Positions 2,868 to 29,103 of a stretch of 35,384 nt of DNA are shown piece by piece. The translations under genes were made by a program, and so were the position numbers. Below the pieces are notes generated by a model, which ran no database searches, was not told the DNA's origin, and saw only the letters and a list, made by a program, of their open reading frames with translations. Every line of letters begins with the position of its first letter. Positions within the stretch are counted from its first letter, which is position 1. Location: assembly GCA_016926255.1 (NCBI GenBank), contig JAFGOY010000052.1, positions 1 through 35,384 of the forward strand, read 5' to 3'. Source of the DNA: Anaerolineae bacterium. GTDB taxonomy: Bacteria; Chloroflexota; Anaerolineae; Aggregatilineales; UBA3940.

Positions 2868-2901
2868 GTGAGTGAATGGTGTTTGGCGGTCAGGAGATCG
2901 C

Positions 2902-4506
2902 ATGTCGCTGCTAGATCGTATGAAGCAGGGCGCTGACGATTCAGACAGCGCTCCGCAGTCAAAAAATGAACAGAGCCTCGATCCCCTCGGTATGCCTGCC
3001 CGGCAGACTGAGATGCTTGATATTGCCACCGTCGAAGCAAAAAATGAAGAGCGGATGATCGAGCTAAAGGCCCGCATCCAGCGCCAGATGATCATCGAAC
3101 TTAACCAGACCAAGAAAACGAAGTTCGATGCCGAGGGGAAAGAGACCAAAGAGGACGAGAAGGAGAAGAAGCCCAAAGGCCCTCTTGCCCGCCCGAAAAA
3201 AGAAAGCACCGAACAGCTTACCGCCAAGATCAGGGAGCTGTTTGACACCATCATCGTCGAAGACCGGCTCATGCTCAATCGCAACGAGCGCAAGGCGATC
3301 TACGAGCAGATCGTCGCCGACATCCTGGGATTCGGCCCATTGGAAGTCCTCCTTGCCGATGAGCACACCAGCGATATCATGGTCATCGGCCATGACCGCA
3401 TCTTTATCGAGCAGCGCGGGCAAATCTACCATACCAACATCAAATTCGACGACGAAGAACACCTGATGCACATCATCAGCCGCATTCTGGCCCCATTGGG
3501 CAGGCGCGTCGATGAAACCTCGCCGATGGTCGATGCCCGCCTTCCGGATGGCTCCCGCGTGAACGCGGTGGTCAGGCCGGTCGCGCTCGATGGCCCCTGC
3601 CTGACAATCCGCAAGTTCTCCGCCATTCCCTTCACCCAGGTCGACCTGATCGAGTTCGGCACGGCAACCGAGGAAATCTTCGATTTTCTCAACGCCTGCG
3701 TCAAGGCTTCGTTGAACATCCTCGTTGCCGGGGGCAGCAGCTGCGGCAAGACGACGCTGCTCAACGTGCTCTCCGGCTATATCCCCGACGGCGAACGAGT
3801 GGTGACGCTTGAGAACGCCGCAGAACTCCAGCTTCAGCAGGAGCACATTGTCCGGCTGGAAACCCGCCCGGAAAACATCGAAGGCGAAGGCGAGATCACG
3901 ATCCGCGACCTGGTCGTCAACTCGATGCGCATGCGCCCCGACCGGATCATCGTCGGCGAGGTGCGTTCCGGCGAAGCCATTGACCTGATCCAGGCGATGA
4001 ACTCCGGGCGCGATGGCTCGATGTGTACCCTGCACTCCAACAGCGCCAAGGACGCCATTTCGCGCCTTGAGGTGATGTGTATTTCCTCCGGGATGGATTT
4101 ACCGATCCGGGCGATCCGAGAGCAGATCGCATCGGCGGTTGACGTAGTGATTTTTATGAGCCGCCTGCGTGATGGCACCCGCAAGATCATGGAGATCGCC
4201 GAGGTCGAAGGGCTTGAGGGCGACAGCGTGATGCTCACCAATATTTTCGCCTTCGAGCGCACCGGCACCAGGGATAACAAGGTGCAGGGTCAGCTCAGGC
4301 CGTCGGGGATCACGCCGCGCTTCATCGAGACAATCGAGGATGCGGGTATCCGCCTTTCGCCGGGGATGTTCGGGCTGGACGCTTACGACGGCCAGCGCCG
4401 CCCGCGCAAAGAGTTCATCACCGTCGAGGAAGAAGAACCAGAATCAGGAGCGCCGCCCGGCGAACCCCCTGCCCCGCCCCCACCAAGTTTTTCGCCGATG
4501 GTATAA
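2902..4506 (+). CDS. CpaF/TadA-type secretion ATPase, orphan
   Basis: A 534-residue protein of the PilT/VirB11 superfamily, CpaF/TadA branch, whose members drive Flp/Tad pilus assembly. Residues 1-110 are charged and Lys/Glu-rich. An N-terminal ATPase domain (FGPLEVLLAD...DIMV) precedes the P-loop. Walker A is GGSSCGKT (277-284, Lys283), Walker B region is DRIIVGEVRSGEA, the His box is CTLHSNSAKDA, and the QLQQ..IVRLETRP..IEG block is diagnostic. The Asp-box position reads LENAAEL (Glu304-Asn305), where the family normally has Glu-Asp. A Pro-rich tail ends the protein. The start at 2902 has AGGAG five bases before it; an ATG at 2872 overlaps the promoter. No TadB, TadC, CpaE, secretin or pilin gene is adjacent, which is unusual. 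A palindromic terminator follows. Confidence 0.93.
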   Translation: MSLLDRMKQGADDSDSAPQSKNEQSLDPLGMPARQTEMLDIATVEAKNEERMIELKARIQRQMIIELNQTKKTKFDAEGKETKEDEKEKKPKGPLARPKKESTEQLTAKIRELFDTIIVEDRLMLNRNERKAIYEQIVADILGFGPLEVLLADEHTSDIMVIGHDRIFIEQRGQIYHTNIKFDDEEHLMHIISRILAPLGRRVDETSPMVDARLPDGSRVNAVVRPVALDGPCLTIRKFSAIPFTQVDLIEFGTATEEIFDFLNACVKASLNILVAGGSSCGKTTLLNVLSGYIPDGERVVTLENAAELQLQQEHIVRLETRPENIEGEGEITIRDLVVNSMRMRPDRIIVGEVRSGEAIDLIQAMNSGRDGSMCTLHSNSAKDAISRLEVMCISSGMDLPIRAIREQIASAVDVVIFMSRLRDGTRKIMEIAEVEGLEGDSVMLTNIFAFERTGTRDNKVQGQLRPSGITPRFIETIEDAGIRLSPGMFGLDAYDGQRRPRKEFITVEEEEPESGAPPGEPPAPPPPSFSPMV

Positions 4507-4575: not shown

Positions 4576-6066
4576 CTACTGCTGACCGGTCAGCGCGGCG
4601 AGTTCCTCCTGAACCAGCCGCACGACCAGCGCGTCGAGGTCTTCGACCGAGTAGCTGTCTTCGGGGACGCTGTACTCGGTGCCCGGTTCGCCGGAACTCT
4701 GCGGGGTATCCTGGTAGGTCAGGAAGATGAAGTTCCCATCGGTAAACTGCGCGATCTGCCGCAGGATGTATTCGGCCTGCTTCTGGTAAGCGTCCTCACC
4801 ATCGAGGCGCGAGCCAATCGGGAATATCTTGATCCCCAGTTCGGCGGCGTTCATCATCTCGACGCCGTAGTCGTAGTCCTGCGTATAATCGAGATGCGGC
4901 GGCGCATCGGCGACCAGGAAGCAGAGGCTGACCGTGTCCTCGACCCGCCAGTTCATCTCATCGACGGCGACGTGAAGCGCCTCGTTCATCGATTCAGGGC
5001 TGTCGCCGCCGCCTTCGGCGCGAACGTCACGCAGTTCCCGCTGGAAACTGTTGATATTGCTCGTAAAATCCGTGCTGCGAACCACGTAGGCATCGCCCCG
5101 GTCGCGGTAGTGAACCAGTCCGAAGCGTACGTCAGGGCTGCTGGGTAGCGCCTCGATCTGCGCCGAAATGCTGAGGATGTTCTCCTTGAGCTGATCGATC
5201 TCGTCGCCCATGCTGCCGGTTGCGTCGAGCAGGAACAGCACGTCGAGCTGCACCTGCTGGCCCGACGAGGACGCGTTCAACGTGACCGGCCAGACGGCGT
5301 CGGTGTTCTGGCGGGTGATCGTGATGCTCTCACTCGCCCGCCCTTTCTCGACGCTGACGTCGAAGCTCGAGACGCCGGTCGTGTTCGGGTAAGCACGCGG
5401 GAAGAAATAGGCCCGACCAGTGGCGGTCGTCCGCAGGCCGACGACGAACTCCTGCCCGGCATAGACATAAACGACTGCGCCCAGCACCGGCAGCCCGTCC
5501 TGATTGGTCACCTGGATGATGTGGCGCTCGGTCACGTCGACATGGCTGACCGGGTAGCCCAGGAAGTGCTCGAAGTCGAGACGGTATTGCAGGTACTCGC
5601 CGAAATCCTCGTTGTCGTCGATCTCGCCAGCTTGCAGCGGCGAAAACTGGTCATCGGGCGGCACCATTTCGGCCTGAGTCGCCATCGGGAGCGCCTCATC
5701 AACGCCGCCGCCCATATCCGGGCCACCGCCCAGCCCGCCCGCCTCGGCATCGAAAAAGCCTTCCTCCGATTCGACTGCGCCCACCGAACTGTCGTCACGG
5801 TCTTCCGCCGCGGCTGGTGCTTCTTCCATCGGCTCTTCCGCCGATTCTTCTACCGCCGGTTCCTCCAGCACTTCGCCGGAAGTGTCTTCGTCGGCTTTAT
5901 TCTCCGATGCGGCTGAGTCGTGTTCGACCAGCGGGGATGCGTCGACGGCGGGGGCTTCGGTCGCTGCCTCATCAGGGGCACCGGCGAACAATGCGCAGCC
6001 CGACGCCAGAAGCGCCAACAGCACTGCCCCGACAATTAACCGCCACAGCTTGTTCTTTCCGTTCAT
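4576..6066 (-). CDS. VWA-domain lipoprotein
   Basis: A 496-residue predicted lipoprotein: signal NKLWRLIVGAVLLALLASGC, then an acidic Glu/Ala/Ser-rich region to about residue 130. Around residues 180-250 is a beta-rich segment (NQDGLPVLGAVVYVYAGQ..., TTATGRAYFFP) like a carboxypeptidase-regulatory or transthyretin-like domain. A von Willebrand A domain follows with the MIDAS start LFLLDATGSMGDEI at about 280, DVRFGLVHYRDRGD, and GGDSPESMNEAL. The MIDAS motif is DxTGS. Such proteins bind metal and a protein ligand outside the cell. The ATG at 6066 has AGGAG upstream (GAGGAGTTGGAG); an ATG 12 codons earlier would spoil the signal peptide. It ends in a terminator shared with the CpaF/TadA gene but is convergent with it, so a link is not shown. 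Confidence 0.9.
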   Translation of the reverse strand: MNGKNKLWRLIVGAVLLALLASGCALFAGAPDEAATEAPAVDASPLVEHDSAASENKADEDTSGEVLEEPAVEESAEEPMEEAPAAAEDRDDSSVGAVESEEGFFDAEAGGLGGGPDMGGGVDEALPMATQAEMVPPDDQFSPLQAGEIDDNEDFGEYLQYRLDFEHFLGYPVSHVDVTERHIIQVTNQDGLPVLGAVVYVYAGQEFVVGLRTTATGRAYFFPRAYPNTTGVSSFDVSVEKGRASESITITRQNTDAVWPVTLNASSSGQQVQLDVLFLLDATGSMGDEIDQLKENILSISAQIEALPSSPDVRFGLVHYRDRGDAYVVRSTDFTSNINSFQRELRDVRAEGGGDSPESMNEALHVAVDEMNWRVEDTVSLCFLVADAPPHLDYTQDYDYGVEMMNAAELGIKIFPIGSRLDGEDAYQKQAEYILRQIAQFTDGNFIFLTYQDTPQSSGEPGTEYSVPEDSYSVEDLDALVVRLVQEELAALTGQQ

Positions 6067-6200
6067 CTCCAACTCCTCTTGATTTCCGTTCAAACTGCTC
6101 ATCGATTATTTTTTATGCCGTTACTCTAAAGACGCCGATCCGATTAAAAAGGTTCCCATTTACCTACCATCATATTCGAAACGCGGAAAAAGACGACCAG

Positions 6201-6937: not shown

Positions 6938-7090
6938 TACCAGACATAGTGTTCATATCTAACGAGTTCCGCATGAACGCTTTTATCTGGTAAACATCGG
7001 GACAATCATATTCACCCTGATCCAGCGAACCACTTCCTAAAACTGGCGCAACGCGGTAATCTGATCAAGAATGAATGCAGGCCGCCACTG

Positions 7091-7104
7091 GCCGGACGTC
7101 CGGC
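7091..7104. repeat. 14-bp palindrome in the PP2C gene leader
   Basis: GCCGGACGTCCGGC is perfectly self-complementary and is flanked by GCCGCC (7081) and GGCGGC (7102). It lies 30 nt before the ATG at 7135 and could be an operator or a 5' leader hairpin. There is no similar site elsewhere that I could find. Confidence 0.4.
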
Positions 7105-7134
7105 GGCTTAATCACCGGTCACCGAGGAACGTGC

Positions 7135-9381
7135 ATGAAATCCACGCAGCCGCTTGGCGAAAACAACATCATCACCGCCCACGCCATCCACAGGGGGCGA
7201 GGCGAAGATGACAGGAACCAGGAAGACGCCTGCACTGCAGCGACGATCACCCTCGCCGACGACCACACCCTGCACGTGGCAATGGTCGCCGACGGCATGG
7301 GCGGCATCGAGGGTGGCGAGATCGCCAGCCGGATTGCCATCGACACTACACTCGATCACCTGCGCCACGGTCACGCCGATCAGCTCCCCGGCCTGATCGA
7401 GAAGGCGCTGCTCACCGCGCACGAGAAAGTCGTCGAGAAGCGCCTCGAACTCGGCTTCGACCGGATGGGGACGACCGCCACGCTCGCCGCCATCACCGCA
7501 GAAAACTGCCTCTACCTCGGCCACGCCGGTGACAGCCGCGCCTATTTGATCCGTAACAGGAAGCTCCACCAGCTCACGCGCGATCACTCGTGGGGCAACC
7601 AGCAGTTCTGGGCCGGGGCAATGTCGCTTACCGAAATCCAGGCCCACGACCGGCGTGACGCGCTGGTTCGCTATTTAGGCCGCCCCGAAGGACTCGAAAT
7701 CGACCTGGCACTGCGCCTCGATCCCTACCAGGGCGACGAAGAAGCCGTCAAAAACCAGGGGTTGCTGCTCCTGCCCGGCGACTCGGTGATGGTGTGCAGC
7801 GACGGCCTGATCAAGATGCGGCCAAACGGCAGCGGCCATTTTGTCGAAGCCGACGAGATCATCGCCGCCGTTACCGATTTCCTCCCGGCGGAGGCGGTCG
7901 AGAAACTGCTTGAGATCGCCCTCTACCGCGAGGCCGACGACAACATCTCGCTGGCGGTGATGACCCTCCCGGTCAGCGCTCCCTACCCCGACGAGCGTTC
8001 GATGCCTTCCGAACTGGTCGAGACGCGCCCGTCGTTTGCCACCATCCGCGACACGTTCACCTACGACCGTATGGAAACAGTACTCGCTCGCCCAATCGGC
8101 GATATGCTTCCGCCCGATATCCAGGATGGAGTCAAAGACAAACCCGAACCGAAAGTTCCCAACCGGCTGCTGTTGACCATCGCCGCCGCGATCCTGTTCG
8201 CCGCCGCGCTGATAGTCGGTGCTGTGCTGCTGTTCGGCGCTCATGAGCCCCCCCCCGATCAGCCGGTGGTGGTCGCCGCTGTCAGCGGTGAGGCGACGGT
8301 CAAATCGCGCGATCAGGAACCGGTTCCGCTCAAACCCGGCACCGACCTCCCCGCGCTCGACTCGCACCTCATCGTTGAGACGGCGGACGGGGCCAGCGCC
8401 CGCCTGCAAGTCCCGGAGATCGGTCTGGCGCTGACACTCAGCGGCGGGTCAACCCTGTGGCTCGATCCCCCGGTAGAGGAAAGCAACGAGCAGGCAGTCA
8501 AGATCACGCTCGCCCAGGGCAGCCTGCTGGTGCAGCGTGGAGCCACCGACGCAGGCCCGGTGCCGGTCTACACCGCGATGCCGCGCGTCCGGGCGGTGCT
8601 TTCCGGGAGTCTGCTGGGCATGCAGTTCGACGAAACGCGTGAGACATTCACCGCCGACTGCATGCAAGGACCGTGCGAAGTTTACGGCAAGGTCGGTTCA
8701 CAACCGATGGCTCGCTGCCAGCGCAGTATATTGGATACAGGCACTACGATGACCACCCCATTCGATATCCGGGGCATCGACTGGGACCCGGTGGCCGGGT
8801 CGGGCATCTCCGATACAGACCTGTGCCTGGGCATCGCCCCGACGCCCGTCGCCGTGATCGACCGCTTCGAGGTCAATACCCGACAGGTCGCCTATCACCA
8901 GCAGGGCAATCTCGAATTTACCTGGGCCGCTGCCGATGCGGTCAGCGGGATCATCCAGGACGGCCTATCTATCGAGATCGAGCCGACTGATTTGAACGAG
9001 GGCACGACCTCCATTCCGATCTCGTCGCTGGGAGTCGGGCTGCACAGCTTCACGCTCACCGTCGAGGATTCGTTCGGCGCAGCGCGAACCAGCGCCCCGG
9101 TCGAAGTCGAAGTGACGGCGGCCCGCTGCACCCTGCTCGACGATGCCACCCTGCTGACGCTCCCCCCGGAGGCGGGCCAGGAACTCAACCCGGACGCCGA
9201 ACCGGTCGAGCCGCCCGACTCCGCCGAGGCTGTCCTGCTGGGGCGCGCCCCCGACAGTGTCCCCTGGGTACAGGTCGCCTATGACAATCTCGACACTCTC
9301 TCCATGACCGGCTGGCTTCCCGTCGATCAACTCGACTGCCCGGATATTTCCATCACCCGCTTCGTCGTCGTCGAACCATAG
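7135..9381 (+). CDS. PP2C phosphatase-TM-FecR-like-Ig-SH3-like fusion
   Basis: A 748-residue membrane protein. Residues about 10-280 form a complete PP2C/SpoIIE-type Ser/Thr phosphatase: RNQED (27-31), VADGMGG (51-57), MGTTATLAAI, HAGDSRAYLIR, LTRDHSW, VCSDGLIK and DDNISLAVM, with all metal-binding Asp present. It should remove phosphate from Ser/Thr on cytoplasmic proteins, reversing a partner kinase. One TM helix lies at about 345-367 (LLLTIAAAILFAAALIVGAV). Outside the membrane come a FecR-like beta domain (VVAAVSGEATVKSRD...; about 375-480), an Ig-like segment (about 590-680), and a C-terminal SH3-like piece (CTLLDDATLL...WLPVDQLDC). The ATG at 7135 has GAGG eight bases upstream; an earlier in-frame ATG at 7075 lies upstream of the palindrome. 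No kinase gene is in the window. Confidence 0.92.
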   Translation: MKSTQPLGENNIITAHAIHRGRGEDDRNQEDACTAATITLADDHTLHVAMVADGMGGIEGGEIASRIAIDTTLDHLRHGHADQLPGLIEKALLTAHEKVVEKRLELGFDRMGTTATLAAITAENCLYLGHAGDSRAYLIRNRKLHQLTRDHSWGNQQFWAGAMSLTEIQAHDRRDALVRYLGRPEGLEIDLALRLDPYQGDEEAVKNQGLLLLPGDSVMVCSDGLIKMRPNGSGHFVEADEIIAAVTDFLPAEAVEKLLEIALYREADDNISLAVMTLPVSAPYPDERSMPSELVETRPSFATIRDTFTYDRMETVLARPIGDMLPPDIQDGVKDKPEPKVPNRLLLTIAAAILFAAALIVGAVLLFGAHEPPPDQPVVVAAVSGEATVKSRDQEPVPLKPGTDLPALDSHLIVETADGASARLQVPEIGLALTLSGGSTLWLDPPVEESNEQAVKITLAQGSLLVQRGATDAGPVPVYTAMPRVRAVLSGSLLGMQFDETRETFTADCMQGPCEVYGKVGSQPMARCQRSILDTGTTMTTPFDIRGIDWDPVAGSGISDTDLCLGIAPTPVAVIDRFEVNTRQVAYHQQGNLEFTWAAADAVSGIIQDGLSIEIEPTDLNEGTTSIPISSLGVGLHSFTLTVEDSFGAARTSAPVEVEVTAARCTLLDDATLLTLPPEAGQELNPDAEPVEPPDSAEAVLLGRAPDSVPWVQVAYDNLDTLSMTGWLPVDQLDCPDISITRFVVVEP

Positions 9382-9535
9382 GCGGTTCAGATCGCCCCCT
9401 TCAGCAGCATATGACTTAAATCCCCCCTCCCCGCACTGGCCCCAGATCGGCGCTTTGCCTATACTGGATAATAAGAGATCATTGCAACTATCACTGATGA
9501 GCGACCGTTTGTTTAGCAGTAAGGAGAAGATGCCT

Positions 9536-10696
9536 ATGCCTGGGAAAACACGATCCACACGGATTGGACTCGTACTGTTGATCATAGTGGCGCTGGCCGC
9601 GATTGCCTGTAACATGGCATCGTGTGGGGCTTCGGCAACGCCCCCCACTGCTACCGAGGAGACACCATCCCAGGGCGGCGAGCCGCCCGGTGACATCCCT
9701 ACAGCGACCAACACGCCGGAAAGCAGCGCCGACACCGGCGACGCAGGCGAGGACGGCGGAGACGGCGGTGATGAAACGGAAGTCGAAGAAGAAGAGGAAG
9801 AGGAACCCGTAGACACCAGTGAATGCAACTGGGACGCCGATTTTGTCTCCGATGTGACCATCCCCGACGACACCGAGATCGCCCCCGGTGCGACCTTCGT
9901 CAAGACGTGGCGCATCAAGAACAGCGGCTGCCAGAACTGGCCGGGCAGCGCGATCATGGTTTTCGATCACGGCGACCGGATGGGTTCGCCGGACTGGGTG
10001 GCAATCCCGGCAGCCAATGTCGGGATGAACGCCGATGTCTCGGTGAATCTCACCGCACCGACCACGCCGGGGACGTACCAGGGCTATTTCCAGTGCCAGT
10101 CACCCGACGGAATCCGCTTCTGCCAGGTCTACGTGCAGATCGTCGTCCCTGAGCCGACCCCCACCCCAACCAATACCCCGGAGCCAACCGAAGAGGCCGA
10201 GCCGGAGAGTATGACTATCCCGGTGACTTACAACAACCGCACCGGCGACATCAGTACCGGCGGCTGCGACCACTCGCGGATACGGGCAGGGATCGCAGGG
10301 GCAGGTAATGCCATTCGCGGCCTCGCCGCCTTCGATCTCGACGACCTGGAAGATACCGAGATCGTCAGTGCCTCCCTGCTGCTCAACGACTATGACGACG
10401 ATGACGACCCCTTCGACAAGATCGCCCCGCTGCGCGTCGAGCAGGTGGAAGTCGCCAATTCCTGCGGCCCGGATGCGATGGCAAGCGGTGACGTAGGCGA
10501 CATCGCCGACATCGCCACCGAGGGTGGACTGTCCTCACCGGTTGACGTCACCGACGAGGTTGCCGACCTGATCGACGACAGCGAACGCTGGTTCCAGATT
10601 CGCCTGAGTTTCCGCGAGGACGACGAGGGCTCCGCTTCCGCGAGTATGGTCGAGTGGGATTCGATCTCGCTCGTGGTGGAATACTTTGAGGATTAG
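9536..10696 (+). CDS. Lipoprotein with NBR1-type Ig-like domain
   Basis: A 386-residue predicted lipoprotein: signal STRIGLVLLIIVALAAIAC, an acidic Glu/Asp/Gly-rich stretch to about residue 95, then a domain matching the NBR1-type Ig-like fold (CNWDADFVSDVTIPDD..., PGATFVKTWRIKNSGC.NWPGS, TPGTYQGYFQCQSPDG) at about 98-206. A Pro/Thr linker (TPTPTNTPEPTEEAEPE) leads to a C-terminal domain of about 160 residues (RGLAAFDLDDLEDTEIVSA) resembling beta-sandwich DNRLRE-like modules. These are structural adhesion or scaffold domains, not enzymes. Two ATGs (9530, 9536) follow AAGGAG; 9536 gives the better spacing (9 nt). It follows the PP2C gene by 154 bp and ends at a strong hairpin. It may be exported and tethered near the phosphatase's outer domains, which is speculative. 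Confidence 0.87.
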   Translation: MPGKTRSTRIGLVLLIIVALAAIACNMASCGASATPPTATEETPSQGGEPPGDIPTATNTPESSADTGDAGEDGGDGGDETEVEEEEEEEPVDTSECNWDADFVSDVTIPDDTEIAPGATFVKTWRIKNSGCQNWPGSAIMVFDHGDRMGSPDWVAIPAANVGMNADVSVNLTAPTTPGTYQGYFQCQSPDGIRFCQVYVQIVVPEPTPTPTNTPEPTEEAEPESMTIPVTYNNRTGDISTGGCDHSRIRAGIAGAGNAIRGLAAFDLDDLEDTEIVSASLLLNDYDDDDDPFDKIAPLRVEQVEVANSCGPDAMASGDVGDIADIATEGGLSSPVDVTDEVADLIDDSERWFQIRLSFREDDEGSASASMVEWDSISLVVEYFED

Positions 10697-17925: not shown

Positions 17926-18291
17926 AGTCAGGGTGTTTTATCCTGGGTATAGATTCACAAACCATGCAGCCATTTCTTTAGATGCAGGGTTCACGGGGAG
18001 GTATTATACCGCAGGATCATCGCTTAGGGGTGATGCACCCCCCACCGGTTCACCTGCGAGTACAAACCGGCGGCAGAAACCGCGTGTAATCTTCCACCAG
18101 CAGCCCCTCTGATTTTCTAACCAGACAGGCGCACCGGTCAATATCCTTACGAGGTCATTTTTTGCAGAAGCCATCAGATTGTATGGTGATTGTTAACCGT
18201 TCCCAGGGCAATGACAATTGTCCACCACCGAATATCAACGATAATAAATACGATAATATGTTGCTTTCTGAATCTTATTGGGAGCGTCACC
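17926..18291. other. 366-bp divergent intergenic region
   Basis: No gene was found. It lies between a minus-strand and a plus-strand gene and should carry both promoters. Visible structure: GGTATTATACC with the minus -10, a hairpin GGGGTG-ATG-CACCCC (18027-18041), and CCGGTT...AACCGG (18045-18070). A plus-strand candidate is TTGTCC-N16-GATAAT (18218-18245), about 45 bp before the GTG. Confidence 0.5.
18003..18008 (-). promoter_or_regulatory. -10 box (TATAAT) for the flippase gene
   Basis: Perfect consensus -10 on the minus strand 78 nt before the ATG at 17925. There is no recognisable -35; the hairpin at 18027-18041 occupies that area and could be an operator. Confidence 0.4.
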
Positions 18292-19161
18292 GTGATCAAA
18301 ATTGTATCGGATACAAATGCCAGCCTTCCCCGCGAAATCACAGTCGAATACGATCTCGCTATTCTCTCACATTACGTCACTCTCGACGGCAGGACTTATC
18401 AGGTTGGCGTCGATCTTCACCCGCAGCAGTTCTACGATTTCCTCAGCACCTCCGACCAGCTTCCTGTCACCGGCCCGGTGACAGTCGATGACTTTTACGC
18501 CGTCTACAACCGGCTTCTCGATGAAGACCCGGCAGTGACCATCATCTCGATTCACCTCTCGCGTGAACTGAGCGAAACCTGCGACAACGCAGTCTGGGCA
18601 GCACAGGCCCTCCGTCCCGCCGACATTCGCGTCTTTGATTCACGTTTTATATCGTTCGGCTACGGCCTGATGGTGATCGAAGCGGCGGAGATGGCAAGAA
18701 ATGGGTTTACCGCTTCTGATATCCTCGACCGGCTGGATGAAATGCGCCGGGGGATGAGAAGCTATACGCTGCTGTCCACACTCGATTATCTGGCGAAGGG
18801 TGGGCGCATCGGGCGGGCACAGCAGTGGGTCGGCACGCTACTCGACATGAAGCCGATCCTCGCCCTGGAGGACGGTGTCGTCGCCCCGCACAGCACCCAG
18901 CGCACCTGGAATCGCTCGCTCGATGTGCTGGTCGAACTGGTAGTGGACGGCTGCTCTGGCAGCGATGGCAGAACACCCCTGCCCGGCATTCAGATCGGCG
19001 TGTCGCATGCCAACAACGAACTGGAGGCATGCCACATCGCCGAAACCCTGCGCACCGAACTCAACCCCGACCGGCTGATCGTCGGGCCGCTGGGTGCAGG
19101 GCTGGTTCCCCACATGGGGCCGGGTGCAGTGTCTCTGGCATGGTATGCACCCGGAAGCTGA
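18292..19161 (+). CDS. DegV family protein, divergent
   Basis: A 289-residue DegV/FakB-like protein: N-terminal IKIVSDTNASLPREI, LDYLAKGGRIGRAQQWVGTLLDMKP-type block and C-terminal LGAGLVPHMGPGAVSLAWY. Family members bind a fatty acid for phosphorylation by FakA. The start is GTG at 18292 with GGGAG seven bases upstream; this gives the length of the family (286-289) while an ATG at 18190 would add 34 odd residues. Compared with its two paralogues here, the SGT patch reads SET (94-96), TSxP reads TGPV (60-63) and HTGPG reads HMGPG, so ligand binding may differ. The gene starts a run with the unknown membrane protein gene, 187 bp apart. Confidence 0.9.
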   Translation: MIKIVSDTNASLPREITVEYDLAILSHYVTLDGRTYQVGVDLHPQQFYDFLSTSDQLPVTGPVTVDDFYAVYNRLLDEDPAVTIISIHLSRELSETCDNAVWAAQALRPADIRVFDSRFISFGYGLMVIEAAEMARNGFTASDILDRLDEMRRGMRSYTLLSTLDYLAKGGRIGRAQQWVGTLLDMKPILALEDGVVAPHSTQRTWNRSLDVLVELVVDGCSGSDGRTPLPGIQIGVSHANNELEACHIAETLRTELNPDRLIVGPLGAGLVPHMGPGAVSLAWYAPGS

Positions 19162-28239: not shown

Positions 28240-29103
28240 TCAGTCGACCGGGCACCAGCTTACCGCGATCACCCCCGGCCCCGCGTGGACGCCAATCGCC
28301 GGGCCAACCTCGGCGAAGATCGTCATCGTCGGGTTGATCGCCTCGGTCAGCCAGTCGAGCATCCGCTGCCCTTCGTCGGGGCAGACGCCATGCGCGACCG
28401 CCAGTTGAAACCCCGATTGGCCACCGGTGATTTTCTCGGCCACGTCCTCGACGACCAGGTCACGCATCGTCACCAGCGACCGTTTGCGCGTGCGCGCCTT
28501 CGAATGGGGAGTCACCTGCCCATCGACGAAAGCCAGAATCGGCTTGATGTCGAGCAGCGTCCCCATCAGGTGTGATGCCCGCCCGATCCGCCCGCCCTTT
28601 GCCAGGTATTCGAGTGTATCGACGACGAACAGGATTTGCATGGCTTCGCTCATCTGCTTGATGCGATCCATCACCCGGTTGACGGTCGCCCCGTCACGGG
28701 CCAGCTTCGCCGCCTCGTAGACGATCAGGGCCAATCCCACCGATATCGACCGCGTGTCGATGATCCGGATGTCGGCATCGGGATAGCTGGCCGCCGCCGG
28801 TCGCGCCGAGCGCACCGTCCCGCTCACCTCGGAGCTTGGATGGATGCATAAGATGGTTGCTTCCGGGTCTTCCGCCAGGATGTCGTCGAAGATCGGGTAG
28901 AAGTCACCGGGAGGGGGCGCGCTGGTCTTGGGAAGCTCGCTCGCGCCCGGCAGTTTGGCGAAGAACTCCGCCGGGCTGATCTCGTAGAATCCCCGGTAGG
29001 TCTCTTCGCCGAAATGAACGTACTGGGGCACCATCGGGATGTTGAACTCGTCCAGAATTTCCTTCGGTAAGCTGCACGTCGTATCGGTTACGATCTTGAT
29101 CAC
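28240..29103 (-). CDS. DegV family fatty-acid-binding protein
   Basis: A 287-residue DegV/FakB-like protein: IKIVTDTTCSLPKEILDE, ELPKTSAPPPGDF, LCIHPSSEVSGTVRSARPAA, DTRSISVGLALIVYEAAKLA, DTLEYLAKGGRIGRASHLMG and GPAIGVHAGPGVIAVSW. Thr is replaced by Ala in the HxGPG motif. The start is GTG at 29103, preceded by AAGGAG six bases upstream. Along with its neighbour it looks like a tandem duplication; a family C repeat lies in the gap. Confidence 0.93.
   Translation of the reverse strand: MIKIVTDTTCSLPKEILDEFNIPMVPQYVHFGEETYRGFYEISPAEFFAKLPGASELPKTSAPPPGDFYPIFDDILAEDPEATILCIHPSSEVSGTVRSARPAAASYPDADIRIIDTRSISVGLALIVYEAAKLARDGATVNRVMDRIKQMSEAMQILFVVDTLEYLAKGGRIGRASHLMGTLLDIKPILAFVDGQVTPHSKARTRKRSLVTMRDLVVEDVAEKITGGQSGFQLAVAHGVCPDEGQRMLDWLTEAINPTMTIFAEVGPAIGVHAGPGVIAVSWCPVD

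Follow-up and report, generated by a model that had tools for sequence, protein, structure and literature searches.

The window is a 35,384-nucleotide stretch of DNA from an Anaerolineae bacterium (Chloroflexota; GenBank assembly GCA_016926255.1, contig JAFGOY010000052.1). At 7135-9381 on the forward strand it carries a gene for a 748-residue protein, delineated by its open frame and by domain searches, that is predicted to include: (i) a cytoplasmic PP2C phosphatase domain, (ii) a disordered linker, (iii) one transmembrane (TM) helix and (iv) an extracytoplasmic arm of FecR-like, Ig/PKD-like and SH3-like parts. The open frame extends over 7075-9381, with an alternative start at an in-frame upstream ATG (7075).

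The PP2C (PPM) domain spans residues 28-276 (7216-7962, forward strand), as placed by Pfam, Foldseek and clade alignments. The Pfam models PP2C_2 (1.4e-11, 44.8 bits, cut-off 24) and PP2C (7e-11, 42.7 bits, cut-off 20.3) both detect it. A preliminary description of this DNA had the PP2C motifs intact, and this is confirmed: none of the conserved Asp, Thr and Gly residues is lost (E30-D31, D53-G54, T113-T114, GD132-133, D223-G224 and D269-N270). These include the metal-binding Asp residues of motifs 1, 2, 8 and 11 (D31, D53, D223 and D269) and the motif 4 Thr (T114). AlphaFold predicts the PP2C fold for residues 1-372, with pLDDT mostly 70-96 across the domain, and Foldseek matches this model to Stp1 of S. 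agalactiae (2pk0, E 7e-17) and to PstP (1txo, E 6.6e-16). The closest PDB sequences are tPphA (2.9e-20), Stp1, PppA and PstP. An insertion of ~20 residues that precedes the LLPGD..CSDG motif is common to the clade in the alignments. The protein is, judged by sequence and model, a PP2C Ser/Thr phosphatase, with its catalysis predicted from the family. Two PP2C-TM relatives of the same family (L037 and L038) have GNxGNG in place of GDSR around residue 132; certain clade members such as these may be altered in catalysis.

The PP2C domain is followed by a disordered cytoplasmic linker (residues 282-341; 7978-8157; AlphaFold pLDDT <50) and by a single TM helix (residues 344-367; 8164-8235), both on the forward strand. 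The helix has a Kyte-Doolittle value of 2.89, is confident in the AlphaFold model and is flanked by four K/R residues on its N side and none on its C side; thus, the PP2C domain is predicted to face the cytoplasm (N-in). Hydropathy, model and flanking charge agree with the one helix first proposed near residues 345-367, and the tail beyond it, put at about 380 beta-rich residues, is beta-rich and 381 residues long (368-748). As a predicted layout, a cytoplasmic PP2C, one TM helix and an extracytoplasmic C-terminal domain are those of PstP. The arrangement had been proposed to sense outside and dephosphorylate inside: the topology stands as a prediction, and the role is a best inference rather than a demonstrated one.

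The FecR-like domain (residues 375-543; 8257-8763, forward strand) is assigned by a profile of relatives and by Pfam matches in those relatives. Pfam FecR scores residues 414-486 of the window protein at E 0.2 (12.6 bits, cut-off 24), its close relatives at 33.5 and 36.2 bits, and the nearest named relative, the PP2C-TM-FecR of Anaerolineales bacterium TGS_CHL6 (locus L161), above the cut-off at 5.7e-08. With the window protein left out of its construction, a FecR profile gives that protein 44.8 bits (best of 1000 shuffles, 7.6) over a match that spans the common DCxxGxC motif. A profile of more diverged kinases and phosphatases alone, with a CYxGxC motif, gives a weak 6.2 bits (best of 200 shuffles, 1.5). 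When the window protein is included, the FecR profile matches a FecR-like stretch of 6ovk (E 0.0018), a siderophore-signalling protein that we take to be PupR. The Ig/PKD-like part (residues 571-664; 8845-9126) and the SH3_3-like part (residues 665-748; 9127-9378), likewise on the forward strand, are assigned by homology to the tails of FHA proteins. A profile of those tails alone scores the window tail at 81 bits (best shuffle, 8.2). The Ig part of the homologous tails matches the PKD domains of KIAA0319L (E 1e-7), and SH3_3 passes its Pfam cut-off of 27 bits in the homologous tails of L098 and L099 and is not reported in the window protein. The arm has Cys residues at 509 and 514 within the conserved DCxxGxC motif, at 528 and 564 (the latter just beyond the FecR-like domain) and at the conserved positions 665 and 735, and with these six Cys is probably disulfide-stabilised. 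The AlphaFold model of the ectodomain is beta-rich with a mean pLDDT of 50, and because it is weak the exact folds are taken from homology, most of all in the Ig part. Thus, the FecR, Ig and SH3 modules of the preliminary description hold as domain content by homology profiles, and not as exact folds. The full architecture is seen in no other genome examined.

Downstream of the phosphatase gene, ~150 nt past its stop, is a gene for an N_BRCA1_IG lipoprotein (9530-10696, forward strand; Pfam 3.9e-22), which is not counted in the system discussed below. This Ig-like lipoprotein is real, and it had been proposed as an external partner. A dedicated partner or ligand of the phosphatase would fit a product that is secreted and Ig-like and whose gene is close by on the same strand; however, the intergenic distance is greater than is usual within operons, and of the 12 window genes tested not one is found again at related PP2C loci, which makes such a partnership very improbable. 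The partners favoured by the evidence are STPKs and FHA proteins that carry the same ectodomains. The window also encodes a TadA/CpaF-type secretion ATPase (2872-4506, forward strand; T2SSE 5.5e-57), the immediate neighbours of which are not pilus genes, and two DegV-family proteins 9 kb apart (18190-19161, forward strand; 28240-29103, reverse strand).

In other genomes, PP2C-TM-FecR genes of the same insertion clade as the window protein have a recurrent context. In 11 genomes the gene is directly downstream of one for a VWA-TM-FHA protein, either with a small Ser/Thr kinase (STPK) gene between the two (TGS, G213, G387, G357, G331 and G390) or without it (G036, G337, G363, G353 and G027). In G264 and G283 the place of the phosphatase is taken by an STPK-TM-FecR. 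The VWA domain is detected by Pfam in some of the cassette proteins and assigned by full-length homology in the others. The window has no VWA-TM-FHA neighbour, no kinase or FHA gene beside the PP2C gene and no kinase anywhere, and family relatives in G003 and G006 have no VWA-TM-FHA neighbour as far as their contigs extend. The genome of the window protein has its VWA-TM-FHA gene on another contig (C43), and its small STPK appears to be divided between the end of C43 and that of C63, with an RCC1-like gene next; thus, the window phosphatase is a putative eraser displaced from the cassette. About 33 STPKs are encoded in this genome. Of its four PP2C matches, one besides the window protein is membrane-anchored with an FGE-sulfatase-like exterior, as assigned by its likeness to L044. 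Such PP2C-TM proteins with an exterior resembling FGE-sulfatase (formylglycine-generating enzyme-like) are encoded at L040:4641-6989 (reverse strand; G000:C38) and L044:5309-7741 (forward strand), and by their predicted architecture are another membrane phosphatase type in this bacterial family. A VWA lipoprotein is encoded just upstream of the window phosphatase on the opposite strand (4576-6102; VWA_4 7e-14), and profile comparison finds no homology between it and the cassette VWA-TM-FHA proteins. A defence system was considered and rejected: PADLOC has no match for the phosphatases or the VWA-FHA protein, and the kinases match only generic kinase-bearing defence models.

The Ig-SH3 tail links the window protein to FHA proteins. 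BLASTP with residues 571-748 finds the C-terminus of FHA membrane proteins from three further genera in its family (1e-9 to 1.5e-14). More distant copies are on FHA-TM proteins across the class, including L094 of the same genome, and on the STPK-FHA-TM proteins L098 and L105. The latter (L098:2421-6455, reverse strand; L105:3061-7200, forward strand; ~1350 residues) are, by predicted domain content, a writer and a reader combined in one chain. A large DUF7408/DUF4350 membrane protein is recurrently encoded near the FHA-TM-tail gene (L035:1469-3916, L051:5325-7808 and L036:9155-11614), and at L035 an STPK gene sits between the two.

The FecR domain, with its C-x-x-G-x-C motif, is found on PP2C-TM and Ser/Thr kinase-TM proteins alike. 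In TGS_CHL6 an STPK-TM-FecR gene adjoins the PP2C-TM-FecR gene on its downstream side, and the two FecR domains are 67% identical (identities are quoted only where a pair aligned over at least 150 residues, as shorter end-gap-free overlaps gave spurious values of 100%). The STPK-TM-FecR gene is followed by a third, degenerate PP2C-TM-FecR-like gene (L161:11996-13351, forward strand), the product of which is possibly a pseudophosphatase receptor. A second, more diverged FecR-like family (motif C..CYxGxC), often with TSP_3 repeats next, is likewise on PP2C-TM and STPK-TM proteins of the order. For all four genomes that hold both types, the FecR tree places the kinase domain with the phosphatase domain of its own genome (supports: TGS 100/100, G213 97/94, G357 89/93 and G387 98/98). 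The AU test rejects (p 9.8e-6) a tree in which all kinase FecR ectodomains are forced into one clade, none of 200,000 label shuffles reaches four same-genome pairs of four, and parsimony requires seven switches of output domain. These results are to be read with the long branches of the tree and its four genomes in mind, gene conversion or duplication being alternatives to selection; in a reduced tree without the long rows, the TGS, G213 and G357 pairs hold and the rows of G387 fall in a grade next to the root, itself placed arbitrarily.

Ectodomains might also be shared simply because domains are shuffled promiscuously or genes converted, with no functional match between the enzymes. TSP_3, PKD, SH3_3 and Ig envelope modules move freely in these genomes, and gene conversion is possible between the adjacent TGS_CHL6 genes. 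Pairing nonetheless recurs in G213, G357 and G387, where the paired genes are on different contigs, and the opposing enzymes both carry the common domain in each of the four genomes; shuffling alone is thus considered an unlikely explanation. Counting against functional matching, an STPK with the window type of FecR was sought in the genome of the window protein (96% complete) and not found, and the PP2C gene there has no kinase or FHA gene beside it.

Versions of the outer arm on the opposing kinases and the readers of related bacteria suggest that the opposing enzymes are kept tuned to one outside cue. The window protein would be a single-pass, receptor-type Ser/Thr phosphatase in which a cytoplasmic PP2C domain dephosphorylates targets of Hanks-type kinases and the FecR-like, Ig/PKD-like and SH3-like arm binds something in the cell envelope. 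It would form the eraser of a module with the recurrent layout VWA-TM-FHA, small STPK and PP2C-TM-FecR. Kinase, reader and phosphatase may answer one envelope cue, or be gathered by it, which is the likeliest reason for the matching; the phosphatase would thereby act on sites used by its matched kinase. The added Ig-SH3 tail is typical of FHA membrane proteins and therefore suggests pairing with FHA-bound targets.

A different role for the arm would be that of a passive anchor at a wall or outer-layer site, with phosphatase activity that is constitutive, as may be the case for PstP. SH3_3 domains are typical envelope-binding modules, the linker is disordered with no clear signalling element, and many unrelated ectodomains are carried by the PP2Cs of this order. 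The dispensable periplasmic domain of PstP (PMC12421883) provides a precedent. A passive anchor is judged improbable, since the grouping by genome of kinase and phosphatase FecR domains is not expected of it unless co-localisation is itself selected, in which case the anchor would merge with the matched-ectodomain reading. Likeliest is a phosphatase that is predicted to be envelope-sensing or envelope-localised and set against kinases and FHA readers with the same outer modules. That it specifically senses the envelope and serves as eraser in a writer-reader-eraser system whose members have matched ectodomains is somewhat better than an even bet. More tentative, and falling short of even, is the broader proposal that writer STPK, reader FHA protein and eraser PP2C are kept in register by the same ectodomain, repeatedly replaced as a set in each genome, as antagonist receptors of one ligand. 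The question bears on how bacterial PP2Cs are regulated and find their targets in genomes of many kinases and few phosphatases. Recurrent same-genome sharing of ectodomains would offer a testable way to assign erasers to their writers and a route to the outside cue that a kinase and a phosphatase sense.

Open-access papers sought on PP2C with FecR and on FecR-domain kinases in Chloroflexi contained nothing on this architecture, and none of those found reports FecR on PP2C or the same ectodomain on a kinase, an FHA reader and a phosphatase. The membrane-anchored PstP of Mycobacterium tuberculosis has a cytoplasmic PP2C domain, one TM helix and a periplasmic domain with two disulfides (PMC12421883). 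The window protein is alike in its PP2C fold and in its order of PP2C, TM helix and Cys-containing extracytoplasmic C-terminal domain. By contrast, its ectodomain consists of FecR, Ig/PKD and SH3 parts, types common to kinases and FHA proteins, its gene is not in a PASTA kinase operon, and its PP2C domain has an extra insertion. The periplasmic domain of mycobacterial PstP is dispensable, yet its disulfides stabilise the protein (PMC12421883); thus, an ectodomain need not control activity. Membrane anchoring had been thought to set the window protein apart; PstP is a precedent, and different ectodomains (SH3_3 and FGE-sulfatase) are commonly found on PP2C-TM proteins of this order, with examples in the same genome. 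A PP2C with a periplasmic sensory domain is also noted in Campylobacterota (PMC9239204). A membrane PP2C with a periplasmic domain is a known type, and it is the tail that is unusual.

Stp1, PrpC and IreP, the partners of PASTA kinases, share the PP2C catalytic domain, and Stp1 the fold, but are soluble, whereas the window protein is membrane-anchored. It scores 136.5 bits against the Stp1/IreP equivalog model NF033484 of NCBIfam (cut-off 230) and is therefore not an equivalog. The FecR and PupR anti-sigma factors have an extracytoplasmic FecR-like domain after one TM helix, as does the window protein, the cytoplasmic part of which is instead PP2C (a kinase in other proteins) with no anti-sigma domain; the window genes scanned include neither one for a TonB receptor nor one for an ECF sigma factor. 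The PpkA-PppA-Fha threonine phosphorylation pathway of the T6SS has kinase, PP2C, and FHA and VWA components. The cassette has the same component types, and PppA is a fold match of the window phosphatase (6jkv, 3e-15). Unlike in that pathway, the phosphatase here is membrane-anchored with a large ectodomain, and T6SS genes were not noticed in the window or the cluster loci. That extracellular sensory domains are common to several receptor types is a known principle (Zhulin et al. 2003, cited in PMC1262709). One sensor domain is shared there by several output enzymes, as here; by contrast, the outputs of the present proteins would oppose each other in a single modification, and the sharing is seen anew in one genome after another.
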